NCBI GenBank assembly: GCA_020054965.1
Contig: JAIMZO010000083.1
Location: forward strand, 1-6,952
DNA: 6,952 nt
Direction of reading: 5' to 3'
From: Spirochaeta sp.
GTDB taxonomy: Bacteria; Spirochaetota; Spirochaetia; Sphaerochaetales; Sphaerochaetaceae
The position numbers and the translations under genes were made by a program. Position 1 is the first letter of the stretch; each line of letters starts with the position of its first letter. The notes beneath the pieces are model-generated. The model searched no databases, was not told where the DNA came from, and saw only the letters and a list, made by a program, of their open reading frames with translations. Positions 1,676 through 6,952 of this stretch are shown piece by piece.

Positions 1676-3748
1676 ATGAAAGATACGATTTATGTTGATG
1701 AAAGTTGGGGTGGTGAAGCTGTCTACAATATCCATGGACAGGTTTCCTTCCAAAGCAAACCGTTCAAGGTAGCCTCATCCTATGAACCCGCGGGAGACCA
1801 GGGCGAGGCGATCAAGGCATTGAGCGCAGGCTTGCTGGATGGGGACCGCTGCCAGACCCTCAAGGGAGTGACCGGTAGTGGTAAGACCTATACGATGGCG
1901 AAGATCATCGAGCAAGTACAGAAACCTACCTTGGTGCTTTCCCACAACAAAACCTTGGCAGCACAGCTTTTCAGGGAGTTCAAGTCATTCTTCCCAGATA
2001 ATGCCGTAGAGTATTTCGTCTCAACATACGACTACTACCAGCCTGAAGCGTATGTTCCGGGAAAGGACTTGTATATTGAGAAAGATGCTTCGATCAACAG
2101 TGAGATTGACCGGCTTCGGCTCTCTGCCACGTTTTCGCTTATGGAGCGTCGTGACGTTATTGTCGTATCAACTGTTTCCTGTATTTATGGTTTGGCAAAT
2201 CCTGTATCAGTTCGAGATATGGTACATACGTTCCATACCGGGGAAGCTTTCAACCATCGTGAGGTTCTCGATCAATTGGTGCGCATGCAGTATGAACGAA
2301 ATGATGCCATTCTTCAGAGAGGTTCATTCCGTGTTCGTGGGGATGTGATTGAGATATGCCCATCCTATCTGGAGAATGCAGTAAGGATATCCATCGATTG
2401 GGATGAGATTGCTTCCATTCAGTGGTTCGATCCCATCAGTGGAGAGAAGCAGGAAATTGTGGACAGCTACACTCTTTACCCTGCAAAACAGTTTGTAATG
2501 CCCCAGGAGCAGGTTAAGGCAGCCATCTCGAGAATCCGCAGTGAAATGGAAGACCAAGTGGAGTATTTTACTTCCATGGGTAAACCATTGGAGGCTGAAA
2601 GAATCAAGACCAGGGTAGAGTATGATTTGGAGATGCTTGAAGAGATAGGATACTGTTCAGGCATCGAGAACTACTCACGCCTTCTCTCTGACCGTAAGGC
2701 AGGGGAACGCCCGGCGGTTTTGCTTGATTACTTCCCCCCTGACTTTATCACCTTCATCGATGAGTCGCATGTTACCCTTCCCCAGGTAGGGGCGATGTAT
2801 GAGGGGGATCGTTCACGGAAATTGAACCTGGTGAACTTTGGATTCAGGCTTCCTTCTGCGTTGGACAACCGTCCCTTGAAGGCTTCTGAGTTTGAACAGG
2901 TGGTGAAGCAACGGGTTTATGTTTCGGCTACACCGAACCAGAAGGAAGTGGATGAGAGTACACGGGTGGTTGAACAGATCATCAGGCCCACAGGCTTGCT
3001 TGACCCAGAAATCGATGTAAGACCCACCGAAGGCCAGATGGAGAACCTGTACGGAGAGATCCGTGCAGTTATCAAGAAGAAACAGCGGGTACTGGTTACT
3101 ACACTGACCAAGAAGATGAGTGAGGATTTGACGGATTATTTTGCATCCCTCGGTTTGAAGGTACGCTACCTTCACTCCGAGATTGAGACCATCGAACGAG
3201 TCGAAATTCTCAGGGATCTTCGCCTCGGGGTGTATGATGTGTTGGTAGGAATCAACCTGCTCAGAGAAGGCTTGGACCTTCCCGAAGTTTCCCTTATCGC
3301 CATTCTTGATGCAGACAAAATCGGATTCCTTCGTTCTGCCACTTCCTTGATCCAGACTATTGGGCGTGCAGCACGTAATGCTGAGGGCCGGGTTATCATG
3401 TATGCAGACCGTATGAGTCCTGCGATGGAAGAAGCCATCAGTGAAACCAACCGTCGTCGCGCTATCCAGATGGCATACAATGAGGAGCATAATATTACTC
3501 CTACTACCATCATCAAGGCGATTCATGACATGCTCGAACGCGAGCAGCATGAACAAAAAGAGATCCAGAAACATGACCTCGAGCTACTCAAGGGTGGTTA
3601 CAACCTGCTCAGTGCAACTGATAGAAAGAATTATATCAAGGCGCTTGAGAAAGAGATGCTAGAAGCCGCAAAGAATCTGGAGTTTGAACGTGCGGCTGTC
3701 ATCCGTGATGAGATCCAGGATGTAAAGACAGGCAAGTTTATCAGTTAG
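1676..3748 (+). CDS. uvrB: Excinuclease ABC subunit B (UvrB)
   Basis: 690 residues, slightly longer than the usual 660-680. UvrB is loaded on damaged DNA by UvrA, verifies the lesion with its helicase-like fold and recruits UvrC. Visible elements: Walker A GVTGSGKT (64-71); the damage-probing beta-hairpin region YDYYQPEAYVP (118-128); DESH Walker B (362-365); YVSATP (415-420); the C-terminal helicase motifs with GINLLREGLDLPEV (525-538) and QTIGRAARN (560-568), which carries the arginine-finger region; and a C-terminal UVR domain (about 645-685), the UvrC contact. ATG 1676 is forced: the frame has a stop at 1655-1657 and no other start before the Walker A region. This gives about 28 residues ahead of the usual SSYEPAGDQ start. 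No clear Shine-Dalgarno is present and the gap to htrA is one base, suggesting coupling. The loop usually reading DADKEGFLRS has Ile549 in place of Glu. Its stop overlaps the stop of the convergent caspase-like gene. Confidence 0.98.
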   Translation: MKDTIYVDESWGGEAVYNIHGQVSFQSKPFKVASSYEPAGDQGEAIKALSAGLLDGDRCQTLKGVTGSGKTYTMAKIIEQVQKPTLVLSHNKTLAAQLFREFKSFFPDNAVEYFVSTYDYYQPEAYVPGKDLYIEKDASINSEIDRLRLSATFSLMERRDVIVVSTVSCIYGLANPVSVRDMVHTFHTGEAFNHREVLDQLVRMQYERNDAILQRGSFRVRGDVIEICPSYLENAVRISIDWDEIASIQWFDPISGEKQEIVDSYTLYPAKQFVMPQEQVKAAISRIRSEMEDQVEYFTSMGKPLEAERIKTRVEYDLEMLEEIGYCSGIENYSRLLSDRKAGERPAVLLDYFPPDFITFIDESHVTLPQVGAMYEGDRSRKLNLVNFGFRLPSALDNRPLKASEFEQVVKQRVYVSATPNQKEVDESTRVVEQIIRPTGLLDPEIDVRPTEGQMENLYGEIRAVIKKKQRVLVTTLTKKMSEDLTDYFASLGLKVRYLHSEIETIERVEILRDLRLGVYDVLVGINLLREGLDLPEVSLIAILDADKIGFLRSATSLIQTIGRAARNAEGRVIMYADRMSPAMEEAISETNRRRAIQMAYNEEHNITPTTIIKAIHDMLEREQHEQKEIQKHDLELLKGGYNLLSATDRKNYIKALEKEMLEAAKNLEFERAAVIRDEIQDVKTGKFIS

Positions 3749-4662
3749 CGAAGAATCAGATCCAGTGGCCCCCCAGTAATGGTGGGGTGCTGGTAGAGTT
3801 TTGGATTCACTCCGCTAAGCGGAAAATCCTGATGGTGATATACATATTGGTAGAGGTAATCCGCCGAGATTGTTTGATCTACATCGCGTAGTATTTGATT
3901 CTCTTCATCCCAGCCGAGTCCTTCAAGTAGCGCTTGTGTGAAATATCCATGGGTCGGAACACCATAATAGGGTGGTTCCTTTGCTGTATTATCATAGGTA
4001 GTAGAAGCCAGTACAAATACAGGGCGGGTATACGATCCTTCGGTAAAGTACTGGTCATATATTTCCTGTAAGTACGCATTTCTCTCTATAAGGGAATAGG
4101 ATGTTTCACTCTCCTGCACAAAGTTTCCGCTATAGCAGCTATCAACAAGTAGCAGGATATTTCCCTTACACTCCTTCAACTTGTCATAGAGGTCTATGAC
4201 TGAAAGAAGAGTTTCATCAAATGGTTCATCATCGTCATCGAGAATTTTCTTATCTTCCCGAGTGGGATAGAGAACCAGTGAACCATCAACATCTCCATGC
4301 CCACTGTAGCTGATGATGAGGATGTCTTGCTCATTCATTGTTTCTGAGAGTGATTCTATTTTCTGGGTGACATTGGCTTTTGTAGGAAGCAAAGGATCAG
4401 AAAGGGAATCACTGTCATCTTGGAGCATAAGGGTGGATGTATGCTCCTTCCCCACAAACAGAGCAGTAAATGCTTTCTCCAATTCTATTGCATCCGGAAG
4501 TGTGCCGTGGAGTGGATTTACATTCGTCCCATCATAACTAAGCGCTATAGCAAGGTGATGGGTTTTTCCTTCCTCAGGAGGATCACTCATCAATTCACAA
4601 CCCCAAAAAAGTGAAAGGGACAGAAGGATCAGAAGTTGAAGTTTCATATATCTAGAGTTCAA
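3745..4662 (-). CDS. Caspase-like (C14/metacaspase-type) cysteine peptidase lipoprotein
   Basis: 305 residues from a TTG start. A hydrophobic signal segment (residues 8-20) ends in FWGC; Cys22 is the likely lipidated residue, with a relaxed spirochaete-style lipobox. The rest is one caspase-hemoglobinase fold: LAIALSYDG as first strand, the TLPDAIELEKAF helix, the catalytic His122 in IISYSGHGD, an acidic loop LDDDDEPFDE (141-150), catalytic Cys176 in LLVDSCYSGNF, then FVLASTTYDNTAKE, HGYFTQALLEGLG and a C-terminal QHPTITGG. Both members of the dyad are intact, so an active peptidase is expected, exposed at the cell envelope. Bacterial relatives often cleave after Arg or Lys, but the target here is unknown. 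The start could be ATG 4647 (C17 lipobox). TTG 4662 is preferred because AGGA sits 8 bases upstream. The gene is convergent with uvrB (stops overlap by 4 bp) and lies 17 bases after the remnant of a paralogue, which suggests a former operon. Confidence 0.9.
   Translation of the reverse strand: MNSRYMKLQLLILLSLSLFWGCELMSDPPEEGKTHHLAIALSYDGTNVNPLHGTLPDAIELEKAFTALFVGKEHTSTLMLQDDSDSLSDPLLPTKANVTQKIESLSETMNEQDILIISYSGHGDVDGSLVLYPTREDKKILDDDDEPFDETLLSVIDLYDKLKECKGNILLLVDSCYSGNFVQESETSYSLIERNAYLQEIYDQYFTEGSYTRPVFVLASTTYDNTAKEPPYYGVPTHGYFTQALLEGLGWDEENQILRDVDQTISADYLYQYVYHHQDFPLSGVNPKLYQHPTITGGPLDLILR
3769..3787 (+). terminator. Possible hairpin 3' of uvrB (weak terminator candidate)
   Basis: Twenty bases after the uvrB stop, CCCCCCA (3769-3775) pairs with TGG+GGGG (3780-3787, one bulged T at 3783) around a GTAA tetraloop, which is of the GNRA type. 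It is the only strong structure near the uvrB 3' end, and uvrB needs a stop because the next gene is convergent. A T-run is present only about 10 bases downstream (TTTT around 3799-3802), so it is not a classical intrinsic terminator. It lies inside the coding end of the caspase-like gene, where TGG codons and HP codons alone could create the pairing. Confidence 0.25.
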
Positions 4663-4670
4663 TGACCTGT

Positions 4671-4677
4671 TCCTTTG
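4671..4677 (-). promoter_or_regulatory. Shine-Dalgarno site deciding the TTG start of the caspase-like gene
   Basis: On the minus strand CAAAGGA occupies 4677-4671, with AGGA eight bases before TTG (4662-4660). The alternative ATG at 4647-4645 has no purine-rich site at a normal distance. The site lies within the 17-base gap after the stop codon (4682-4680) of the upstream caspase-like remnant, a spacing typical of translationally linked operon neighbours. Confidence 0.55.
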
Positions 4678-4679
4678 CT

Positions 4680-4810
4680 TCAGTAGCGGAAAAGTAGCAT
4701 ATCCATCGCCCCACCGGTTACCATGGGGTGTTGCACATTCTCTCCAATGGAAAACAACGACCAGCGTACAGGGTATGTCTGGTTTTTCTTGATGTATTTA
4801 TACGTCAATT
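4680..4810 (-). pseudogene. 3' remnant of a second caspase-like gene, cut by the insertion sequence
   Basis: Reading the minus strand from 4808 to the TGA at 4682-4680 gives 42 uninterrupted codons. The product contains TYKYIKKNQTYPV and ends QHPMVTGGAMDMLLFRY. This lines up with the end of the intact neighbour: LYQYVYHHQDFPL, then QHPTITGGPLDLILR. The spacing, the QHP-x-[VI]-TGG-x-[ML]-D-[ML] pattern and the distance to the stop all agree, so this is the C-terminus of a paralogous caspase-like peptidase. Homology ends at the insertion sequence boundary (4810/4811); continuing into the element gives an immediate in-frame stop. The catalytic His and Cys would lie in the missing 5' part, expected beyond the far end of the element. 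The divergence between the two tails indicates an old duplication. Whether the 5' half still exists cannot be seen here. Confidence 0.8.
4807..4810. repeat. Candidate target-site duplication, left copy (AATT)
   Basis: AATT directly precedes the left terminal repeat and is repeated directly after the right terminal repeat at 6945-6948. Four bases of a palindromic AT-rich word are weak evidence alone. It is supported by the fact that keeping one copy and removing the element restores an open caspase-like frame across the junction. Confidence 0.5.
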
Positions 4811-4831
4811 ACCCATAAACGGGTAAACGCC
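4811..4831. repeat. Left terminal inverted repeat of the insertion sequence
   Basis: ACCCATAAACGGGTAAACGC plus one C matches the reverse complement of 6924-6944 (TCCCCCAAACCGGTAAACAC plus C) at 16 of 21 positions, including the uninterrupted core GGTAAAC. A second, local inverted repeat TTACCC/GGGTAA (4809-4814 and 4821-4826) overlaps the tip. The core is the probable transposase binding site. Confidence 0.75.
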
Positions 4832-4876
4832 CTCAATTAAACACCCCAATATATCTTCTCTGGATTTCGATTTAAC

Positions 4877-4897
4877 TATCTTGTTAGCAACAAGATA
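4877..4897. repeat. Perfect 9-bp inverted repeat (hairpin) in the element leader
   Basis: TATCTTGTT and AACAAGATA are exact reverse complements separated by AGC. The hairpin lies 17 bases upstream of the -35 box of the transposase promoter. It could be an operator, or a structure limiting read-through transcription into the transposase gene, as known for several insertion sequences. Nothing in the sequence decides between these; no strong T-run follows it. Confidence 0.6.
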
Positions 4898-4914
4898 ATT
4901 TATGTCGTTTTCTC

Positions 4915-4943
4915 TTGATTTATTGTCATAAAACTCTTATAAT
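4915..4943 (+). promoter_or_regulatory. Sigma70-type promoter of the transposase gene
   Basis: TTGATT (4915-4920) and TATAAT (4938-4943) are separated by exactly 17 bases, matching the housekeeping consensus at 4 of 6 and 6 of 6 positions. Transcription should start near 4950, leaving a leader of about 30 bases before ATG 4981. A small inverted repeat TTACC-ATC-GGTAA (4949-4961) sits on the expected start site and could be an operator or a short leader hairpin. This is the best promoter I see in the window. Confidence 0.8.
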
Positions 4944-4969
4944 TATAGTTACCATCGGTAATCATTAAT

Positions 4970-4976
4970 AGGAGGT
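4970..4976 (+). promoter_or_regulatory. Strong ribosome binding site of the transposase gene
   Basis: AGGAGGT at 4970-4976 places the core AGGAGG five bases before ATG 4981. It fixes the start codon and is much stronger than the sites before htrA and uvrB. With the near-consensus promoter it implies appreciable transposase expression unless another control is present. Confidence 0.85.
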
Positions 4977-4980
4977 TTTT

Positions 4981-6846
4981 ATGGCACACATATATTGGGA
5001 ACTGAAAGAGATTCCACAGCCTGAAGGATCACATATTAACAGGAGTGACGGGAGGGTATTTGTCTTCCTTTCAGGGGATTCCCCTGTAAGGAAGAGCAGG
5101 CGAAAAGTCATCGGCCGTGCGACAAGCGAGACCATGATGCATCCTAACGACACCTTCAAGTATCTCTTTCCCAACTTGTGGAATGAGCATTATGGTCCTG
5201 ACAAGCTTCCTGAGCATATCCTCCATGTTGGTCTCTATGCCCTCACCCTTGGCATCGGCTATGAGACCGGCCTCTATCCGATTCTTCAGAATGCCTATGG
5301 GCCTTTACATGCCAACATCCTTATGGACTACGGGATATACTCCATCCTTGAGCAATCTGATGTATCCATGCACTTTCCAGACAGGATGGCACAGCGGGTT
5401 ATCTTCTCAAAGGATTGTGTAAGCGACTCCTGGCTCTCCGACTTCTTCCAGAACAGGATCACCGGGAATGACAATGCGGCCTTCAGGTCGCAGTGGCTTG
5501 ATGCATGCAAGAAGAGGGGCGTGACAAAGGCCTGGATCAGCATTGACGGCAGCAACAACAACTGTGATGCACTGGCGTGTGACCTGGCTGAGAAGGGACA
5601 CTCCAAATCCAGGAAGAACACCAATGTCGTAAGCTACATGTATGCGGTCAACGCTGAAGACGGCAGGCCCATCACCTACACGGTATCCAATGGGGGCAAG
5701 GTCGATTCCAAGGCTTTCCAGAAGATGGCGGCCCTGCTCGCCTCCCATGGGATCGAGACCGAAGGTGTCATTCTTGACAGGGCATTCTGCACCCATGATG
5801 TGTTCCATTTGCTGGACAGGCTGGGATACCCCTATGTGGTCATGCTGCAGTCAAACACCTTCGGCCATACACAGATGGTGGCTGAGCACAGTGAGACAAT
5901 ACGGTGGCGTGTGCCTTATGCAGTAGGCGAAAAAGGGCTGTTCGGCCTGTCCAAAAAGAAGCAAATCTTTCGCCAGCACCCGGAAGAAGCCTTTGTTAAC
6001 CTATTCTTTGATGCCTCTAATGGATCACAGCGGGCCCTTTCCCTCCTGGGCAAGGTCATGAAAGCCACCAGGGAGATTCGGGCGGACATCCAAAGGGGAA
6101 AGGCTCCTGTTGTCCCTCCGTCCCTTGCCAAGTACATCACACTCAATGGGGAAGGCCATGGCATTACAGTAGAGCATGATTACGGGTTGTGGCAGAAGGA
6201 TATGGACCTGAAGGGGTACAGCAGTATCGCATCCTCAGAAGACTTCGGGCCACAGGAAGTGGACAGGGTCTACCATCTCAGGGATGCCTCGGAGACCCAG
6301 TATTCGATACTCAAGAGCCAGCTTGGCTATGATGTGACCAGGGTCCATTCCACCCCAGGCATCCAGAACAAGTTTTGTGCCTGTTTCATAGCAGCTATCA
6401 TCAGAAGCGAAATCATGAATGCCTGCAAGGCCCTCGGGTATGCCACAAACCAGATGATACGGGAAGTGGACCGGATTGAACTCCTGCTGCTTCCCAACGG
6501 CACCTACACTGCGATCCATGATGAGAGTGCAAGGGCCAAGGAGCTGTTGTCATTGTATGATATCGTCCCATCCGATTTTGATTCGATTGCCACAGATGTG
6601 AACAACCGCCTCTCAAGTAGCATGAACAGCCAGGTCAGGGTAAAGCCAAGCCATGAAAAACGGGAACCCAGGAAGAGGGGCCGGCCTCCCAAGGCAAAGG
6701 CCGATGCACCGACAAAGACAAAACGAAAGCCAGGAAGGCCAAAGGGAAGTGTGAAGAAGGCTAAGCCTGCCAAGCAGGAAGGGGTGGCAAAAAGAAAACC
6801 CGGCAGACCCAAGGGGAGCAAAAACAAGCCTAAGGCAGATGCTTAG
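4981..6846 (+). CDS. DDE transposase, IS4 superfamily (IS1634-like), with C-terminal AT-hook tail
   Basis: 621 residues. It cuts and rejoins the ends of the surrounding insertion sequence through a DDE (RNase H-like) active site. The catalytic residues are readable: Asp189 in WISIDGSNNN, Asp266 in VILDRAFC and Glu438 within Y431-x2-R434-x3-E438-x6-K445, the exact Y(2)R(3)E(6)K signature of the IS4 superfamily. The long stretch between the second Asp and Glu is the usual insertion domain of this group. The N-terminal 120 residues (for example RVFVFLSGDSPVRKSRRKVIGRA) resemble IS1634-type proteins. The last 60 residues are lysine- and proline-rich with three AT-hook cores: RGRPP (566-570), PGRPKGS (584-590) and PGRPKGS (607-613). 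This tail would bind the minor groove of AT-rich DNA and makes the protein longer than I expect for the family. After the TAG the same frame stays open and lysine-rich to the end of the window. Family assignment is firm; the subgroup is tentative. Confidence 0.93.
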   Translation: MAHIYWELKEIPQPEGSHINRSDGRVFVFLSGDSPVRKSRRKVIGRATSETMMHPNDTFKYLFPNLWNEHYGPDKLPEHILHVGLYALTLGIGYETGLYPILQNAYGPLHANILMDYGIYSILEQSDVSMHFPDRMAQRVIFSKDCVSDSWLSDFFQNRITGNDNAAFRSQWLDACKKRGVTKAWISIDGSNNNCDALACDLAEKGHSKSRKNTNVVSYMYAVNAEDGRPITYTVSNGGKVDSKAFQKMAALLASHGIETEGVILDRAFCTHDVFHLLDRLGYPYVVMLQSNTFGHTQMVAEHSETIRWRVPYAVGEKGLFGLSKKKQIFRQHPEEAFVNLFFDASNGSQRALSLLGKVMKATREIRADIQRGKAPVVPPSLAKYITLNGEGHGITVEHDYGLWQKDMDLKGYSSIASSEDFGPQEVDRVYHLRDASETQYSILKSQLGYDVTRVHSTPGIQNKFCACFIAAIIRSEIMNACKALGYATNQMIREVDRIELLLLPNGTYTAIHDESARAKELLSLYDIVPSDFDSIATDVNNRLSSSMNSQVRVKPSHEKREPRKRGRPPKAKADAPTKTKRKPGRPKGSVKKAKPAKQEGVAKRKPGRPKGSKNKPKADA

Positions 6847-6923
6847 GCAAGCTCTAAAAACAAGGAAGAGAAAAAAGCAAAAGCAGTAAGCCGGCAACCC
6901 TCAAATAGAGGTAATATTATCGA
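6847..6923 (+). other. Non-coding 3' region of the insertion sequence
   Basis: Seventy-seven bases between the transposase stop and the right terminal repeat. The transposase frame continues open here and starts with a lysine/alanine-rich stretch (ASSKNKEEKKAKA), then loses that character. A weak hairpin ACCCTC-AAATA-GAGGT (6897-6912) is visible but has no T-run, so no convincing terminator is present. Confidence 0.45.
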
Positions 6924-6944
6924 GGTGTTTACCGGTTTGGGGGA
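6924..6944. repeat. Right terminal inverted repeat of the insertion sequence
   Basis: GGTGTTTACCGGTTTGGGGG plus A, the imperfect reverse complement of the left end. The shared core is GTTTACC. Mismatches fall at the outermost base, at positions 5-6, 11 and 19 counted from the tip. Confidence 0.75.
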
Positions 6945-6948
6945 AATT
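6945..6948. repeat. Candidate target-site duplication, right copy (AATT)
   Basis: AATT follows the right terminal repeat and matches 4807-4810. Only CATG follows before the window ends. On the minus strand, CATGAATT joined to GACGTATAAA reads H-E-L-T-Y-K, in frame with the caspase-like remnant. Confidence 0.5.
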
Positions 6949-6952
6949 CATG

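Follow-up and report, generated by a model that had tools for sequence, protein, structure and literature searches.

The window analysed here, a stretch of 6,952 nucleotides covering positions 1 to 6,952 of contig JAIMZO010000083.1 from a Spirochaeta sp. assembly, very probably preserves the trace of an ancestral tandem pair of Peptidase_C14 (caspase-like) lipoprotein genes of Sphaerochaeta, one member of which, hereafter B, was struck at a TTTATA site by an insertion sequence of the IS1634 family, while its neighbour, hereafter A, is intact. Four parts of this reading come directly from sequence comparisons, namely the homology of a short gene tail to B, the intact pairs found in relatives, the family and the ends of the element, and a breakpoint at 4802/4803. 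The features of the window are listed in Table 1; from left to right, the kinase, htrA and uvrB genes are on the plus strand, gene A and the remnant of B on the minus strand, and the transposase again on the plus strand.

Table 1. Features of the window (positions are those of the 6,952-nt stretch).
Feature	Position	Strand	Remarks
pfkB-family kinase gene, end part	left part of the window	+	
htrA-like protease gene	between the pfkB-family kinase gene and uvrB	+	
uvrB	1676..3748	+	convergent with gene A; neighbour kept in relatives
Gene A, intact Peptidase_C14 lipoprotein, 300 aa	3745..4647	-	ATG at 4647, stop 3745-3747
Gene B remnant, last 40 codons and stop	4680..4802	-	codons 4683-4802, stop 4680-4682
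TTTATA, probably the left repeat of the target duplication (6 bp)	4797..4802	.	B codons Y-K on the minus strand
IS1634-family insertion sequence, 2150 bp	4803..6952	+	80.5% identical to the 2148-bp complete copy of genome G018
Left terminal inverted repeat	4803..4831	+	starts CGTCAATT
Transposase, 621 aa, DDE_Tnp_1	4981..6846	+	three AT-hook-like GRP motifs in the C-terminal tail
Right terminal inverted repeat	6924..6952	-	starts CATGAATT read inward; tip is the window end

A Gene Remnant Beside an Intact Caspase-Like Gene

Gene A, which was aligned with 19 orthologs, has the motifs SGHG and DSCYSG and a lipobox-like LFWGC, and a 305-aa frame of A beginning at an upstream TTG scored 49.8 bits against PF00656 (gathering cut-off 21.4). 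Next to A, the minus strand carries an open frame of 42 codons (4680-4808), whose C-terminal end is QHPMVTGGAMDMLLFRY. A preliminary description of this DNA had proposed that the frame is the tail of a second, tandem caspase-like gene cut by an insertion sequence, and the comparison with Sphaerochaeta sp. S2 (G001), the nearest genome among those examined, bears this out. The tail is 97.5% identical over 40 aa to the C-terminus of the S2 protein B (E 2e-25, searched against the open frames of the retrieved loci), with 120/123 nt the same, and the element beside it has a transposase frame and terminal inverted repeats. In S2, B is an intact gene of 331 aa directly upstream of A, 33% identical to A, and it carries SGHG and DSCYSG, i.e., the same catalytic His-Cys dyad as the A of the window; its PF00656 score is 39.4 bits (cut-off 21.4). 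The stop of B and the start of A are separated by 32 nt in S2, and the same spacing was found in the window. The uninterrupted gene expected in relatives devoid of the element is thus present, and it ends at the equivalent of position 4680. The parallel previously drawn between the tail and the C-terminus of A is weaker yet real (35% over 40 aa against the window's own A, E 2e-6 in a one-sequence comparison), and by identity the tail falls on the B side. The 42-codon remnant by itself gave no Pfam match, and its similarity to the C14 family is significant through B.

The remnant has to be shortened by two codons, however: the last 40 belong to B, whereas the first two, TTG and ACG, are element DNA. 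That the tail encodes a small protein of its own, initiated at this TTG, is scarcely conceivable; an open frame with such a start does exist, but the TTG is inside the element and the tail corresponds, in frame, to the end of a conserved protein of 331 aa.

In a collection of 5.8 billion proteins we found 53 homologs of B, two of which, the metagenomic P0005 and P0016, match the tail in 40/40 of their last residues and are open through the insertion site. A protein running from B into the element was not found among the 53, where clustering at 90% could mask one. P0015, a 294-aa partial B from a 2584-base contig of a Sphaerochaeta MAG, was considered as the missing half of B and rejected on two grounds: the proteins closest to it, P0006 and P0008 (99% identical), have GESVQ at their end in place of the GENVQ of the window, and it stops before the target site, at ...LTIDS, one codon ahead of Y-K. 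Its end beside the insertion point is possibly a contig break at another insertion, or possibly a matter of chance.

At the DNA level, the window is 95.8% identical to S2 in uvrB, 93.5% in htrA and 79.2% in A (the A protein is 79% identical), which indicates as host a Sphaerochaeta near S2 and not S2 itself. The divergence is patchy: over 3745-4802, compared with the S2 locus L034, the tail of B is 97.6% identical in DNA and A merely at the level given above. From this unevenness, A may have evolved fast or undergone recombinational exchange.

The Insertion Sequence, Its Ends and Its Target

The transposase narrowly passed the NCBIfam model of the IS1634 family (NF033559, 103.8 bits against a cut-off of 100), and the next family was at 30.4 bits against 115. 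In a DNA search of 26 genomes of the genus, two gave a match, namely G018, with copies of the element, and S2, where just 23 bases of the B tail were hit; a protein search with the transposase in 139 genomes of the family (E <= 1e-100) returned G018 alone. The complete G018 copy (L102), which runs from CGTCAATT to AATTCACG, is flanked by TATATA on either side. Two more right ends of G018, AATTTACG and AATTCATG, are each followed by TATATA, so that this applies to 3/3 right ends, and the tip of AATTCATG (L106) is the same as the right tip of the element in the window.

These copies, together with the empty site, allowed us to fix the left boundary. In S2 a single TTTATA occupies the insertion position, and at 4802/4803 the match to S2 changes from the 120/123 nt of the gene side to 7/27 on the element side. 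The element therefore starts at 4803 and not after 4810, as had been supposed, and TTTATA is probably the left copy of the target duplication, as judged from this alignment. The 6-bp length attributed to the duplication of the window is taken from one G018 copy, the sole complete one with both flanks, and from the family rule.

The preliminary description had instead assumed a 4-bp duplication of AATT, with an open in-frame junction H-E-L-T after removal of the element. It is true that AATT occurs at both ends and that the frame is open across them; nevertheless, AATT lies inside both inverted repeats, in the window element as in the complete G018 copy, and the ends so defined would be without the terminal C of the family (PMC2266710). 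Moreover, at the DNA level, six of six close relatives of B read D-S-L or D-S-I, followed by Y, where this model has E-L-T-Y. With the breakpoint at 4802/4803, the L-T that opens the 42-codon frame is element sequence, and so is the H-E-L-T junction. This highly improbable model was thus ruled out by the G018 copies and the six relatives, the apparent junction being an artefact.

According to the account of the IS1634 family in PMC2266710, its members have the end consensus C-----YT and 5-6 bp repeats in AT-rich tracts, two of them carry long, variable duplications, and their size, given as typical and not as defining, is 1500-2000 bp. The ends of the window element, CGTCAATT and CATGAATT, fit the consensus, with a C at the start and T-T at positions 7-8; the complete G018 copy has 6-bp repeats at an AT-rich target. 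At 2150 bp, the window element is slightly longer than the typical range. Its transposase has a basic tail with the three GRP motifs at residues 565-611 (window 6673-6846), kept in both G018 transposases, the only ones with which the tail was compared; the Pfam AT_hook model was just under its cut-off there (14.9 against 17.4 bits). As judged from these motifs, the tail may help to direct the element to AT-rich targets, TTTATA and TATATA among them.

Probable Fate of the Interrupted Gene and of Its Neighbour

In the proposed sequence of events, B and then A would have closed an ABC-transporter operon on the minus strand, convergent with uvrB. The element would have inserted at TTTATA, in B codons 292-293 (S2 numbering), with the transposase reading against B, leaving the last 40 codons of B beside A and placing the remainder beyond the element, presumably with the second copy of the 6-bp duplication. 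The window ends before any right target copy or 5' part of B, which would lie beyond 6952; if this 5' part is present, translation of B would run on into the element and terminate within a few codons of foreign sequence. The last base of the window is the right tip of the element, and contigs break in this way at repeat boundaries.

Two other readings bear on what lies beyond this tip. In the first, the 5' part of B was lost, through insertion with an adjacent deletion or rearrangement, and only the tail of the gene survives. The window gives no sequence beyond 6952, and rearranged copies do exist, since one G018 copy, on contig C22, has a normal right end and no recognisable left end; however, the complete copy of G018 inserted cleanly, between flanks that match, and the tail is undecayed with respect to both S2 and P0005, which suggests a recent event. 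We consider such a loss unlikely. In the second, the window end is an assembly junction, at which reads of the repeat were attached to this flank while most cells have an intact B. The contig halting exactly on the tip, as contigs do where repeats branch, would agree with this, as would the metagenomic P0005 and P0016, with their identical 40-residue ends open through the site. On the other hand, the element joins the tail at TTTATA, in keeping with the target preference of its family, and the left junction is within continuous sequence, so that an assembly junction appears quite improbable.

If B was interrupted as we propose, the consequences can be considered on predicted structures. The A and B paralogs have a predicted caspase/metacaspase fold. 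In the model of S2 B (mean pLDDT 81.5) the insertion site is within the helix 288-298, and the part cut off comprises the last two strands and the residues Q315, H316, P317, G321, G322, D325, L328 and F329, invariant in a 20-row alignment and conserved at >=90% in a 52-row alignment. The catalytic motifs lie upstream of the site, that of His from residue 139 and that of Cys from residue 191. The truncated protein would therefore retain its catalytic residues and lose part of its core, namely half of its last helix and the conserved C-terminal QHP..GG..D..LF segment, and a loss of B function is likely.

Since the transposase is in the opposite direction and A is 32 nt behind B, A would probably be separated from the promoter of its operon. 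No promoter-like site was found on the minus strand, that of A, between 3700 and 5000. A promoter of the element driving A was also considered and set aside, as the two sites found in the same interval are both on the plus strand and fall short of the mean of 3.3 obtained after shuffling.

As regards known systems, the predicted folds of A and B showed about 12-19% identity in structural alignments with the C14 metacaspases and orthocaspases AtMC4, AtMC9, yeast Yca1 and GSU0716, from which A and B differ by a lipoprotein-like signal and by the conserved C-terminal QHP..GG..D..LF segment. The terms follow PMC6426788, where metacaspases are described as having a p10 domain and orthocaspases as lacking it. 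For prokaryotic metacaspases, PMC3501461 reports the Cys-His pair as conserved in 89% for Spirochaetes, and states that N-terminal helices may be signal peptides. The sole NCBIfam match of A and B is the model of EACC1-associated caspases (NF047832), with scores far under its curated cut-off (47.3 and 57.7 bits against 140).

The Tandem Pair in the Genus and Its Phylogeny

The 26 genomes of the genus were searched with A and with B. The two genes are adjacent in 20/26, including G022, in which A is cut by a contig end; two genomes (G008 and G015) have only part of A, at the edge of a contig, and three (G009, G016 and G017, the last rated 95% complete) gave no copy of A or B at the thresholds used. 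G019 (L036) has a frameshifted B, and its uvrB is frameshifted as well, which makes a sequencing error in this assembly likely; we therefore set it aside as a second broken B and counted it neither as intact nor as knockout.

The phylogeny was built on 40 sequences (11 A, 12 B and 17 single or other genes), all from a set of 68 related loci, save the A of the window; it omits the A copies of L045, L047, L036 and L046, the matches of L061 and L064 and the loci of the genus search. B forms one clade (98/97), A forms another together with one single-copy gene (99/99), and the join of A and B is less well supported (82/88). The separation of the two clades indicates that the A/B duplication is old. 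Two caspase-like matches at the equivalent place were also observed in the more distant spirochaetes L055 and L056; both Bullifex copies (L055) belong to neither the A nor the B clade, suggesting that they were duplicated separately. In the A paralogs of L045 and L047 the His motif is SGHA and not SGHG.

The Conserved Neighbourhood

The 68 related loci were drawn from 84,980 species genomes. Loci of Sphaerochaeta, such as that of S2 (L034:577-6894), and of several other spirochaetes have in common the order substrate-binding protein, permease, ATPase, small protein and one or two caspase-like genes, with uvrB and htrA convergent to them. A uvrB match was counted by eye in 25/68 loci, in one case at a distance above 4 kb; many of the loci devoid of it are from other phyla or on short contigs. 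The small protein has a signal-like N-terminus and no family match, and is absent or unrecognised in distant loci.

The substrate-binding protein passed the thiamine subfamily model TIGR01254 (273.4 against 93.4 bits) and was below the cut-off of the thiB equivalog (227.2 against 317.15 bits), whereas the permease and the ATPase were below the cut-off in the best 25 of 32 and the best 25 of 194 models, respectively. With a match at subfamily level only, 'thiamine-type' is a subfamily label, from which the function of the caspases does not follow. A role in anti-phage defence was also considered and rejected: the caspase matches in PADLOC are weak and generic (28.7 and 19.6 bits), and the adjacent genes serve transport and repair.

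From these data it is tempting to propose, albeit as a rather doubtful idea, that in Sphaerochaeta and its kin the locus could be a conserved envelope module, in which two membrane-tethered metacaspase-like proteases, the products of an ancient duplication, cooperate with a thiamine-type ABC importer and with a small protein that is exported; the insertion would then be a natural knockout, B being losable with A kept.

Conclusions

The knockout of one paralog by an insertion sequence is an ordinary event, and the conserved locus that it uncovers is mildly interesting. In the portion of the literature on spirochaetal caspases, metacaspases and lipoprotein orthocaspases that was consulted, we found no dedicated study of these Sphaerochaeta caspase-like lipoproteins. 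For the analysis of similar elements, it is worth considering that a short repeat within the ends can pass for a target duplication. For the biology of the genus, the insertion points to two tandem genes for caspase-like lipoproteins whose chromosomal location is the same in 20/26 Sphaerochaeta genomes, and for one of these paralogs it offers what would be a natural loss-of-function allele.
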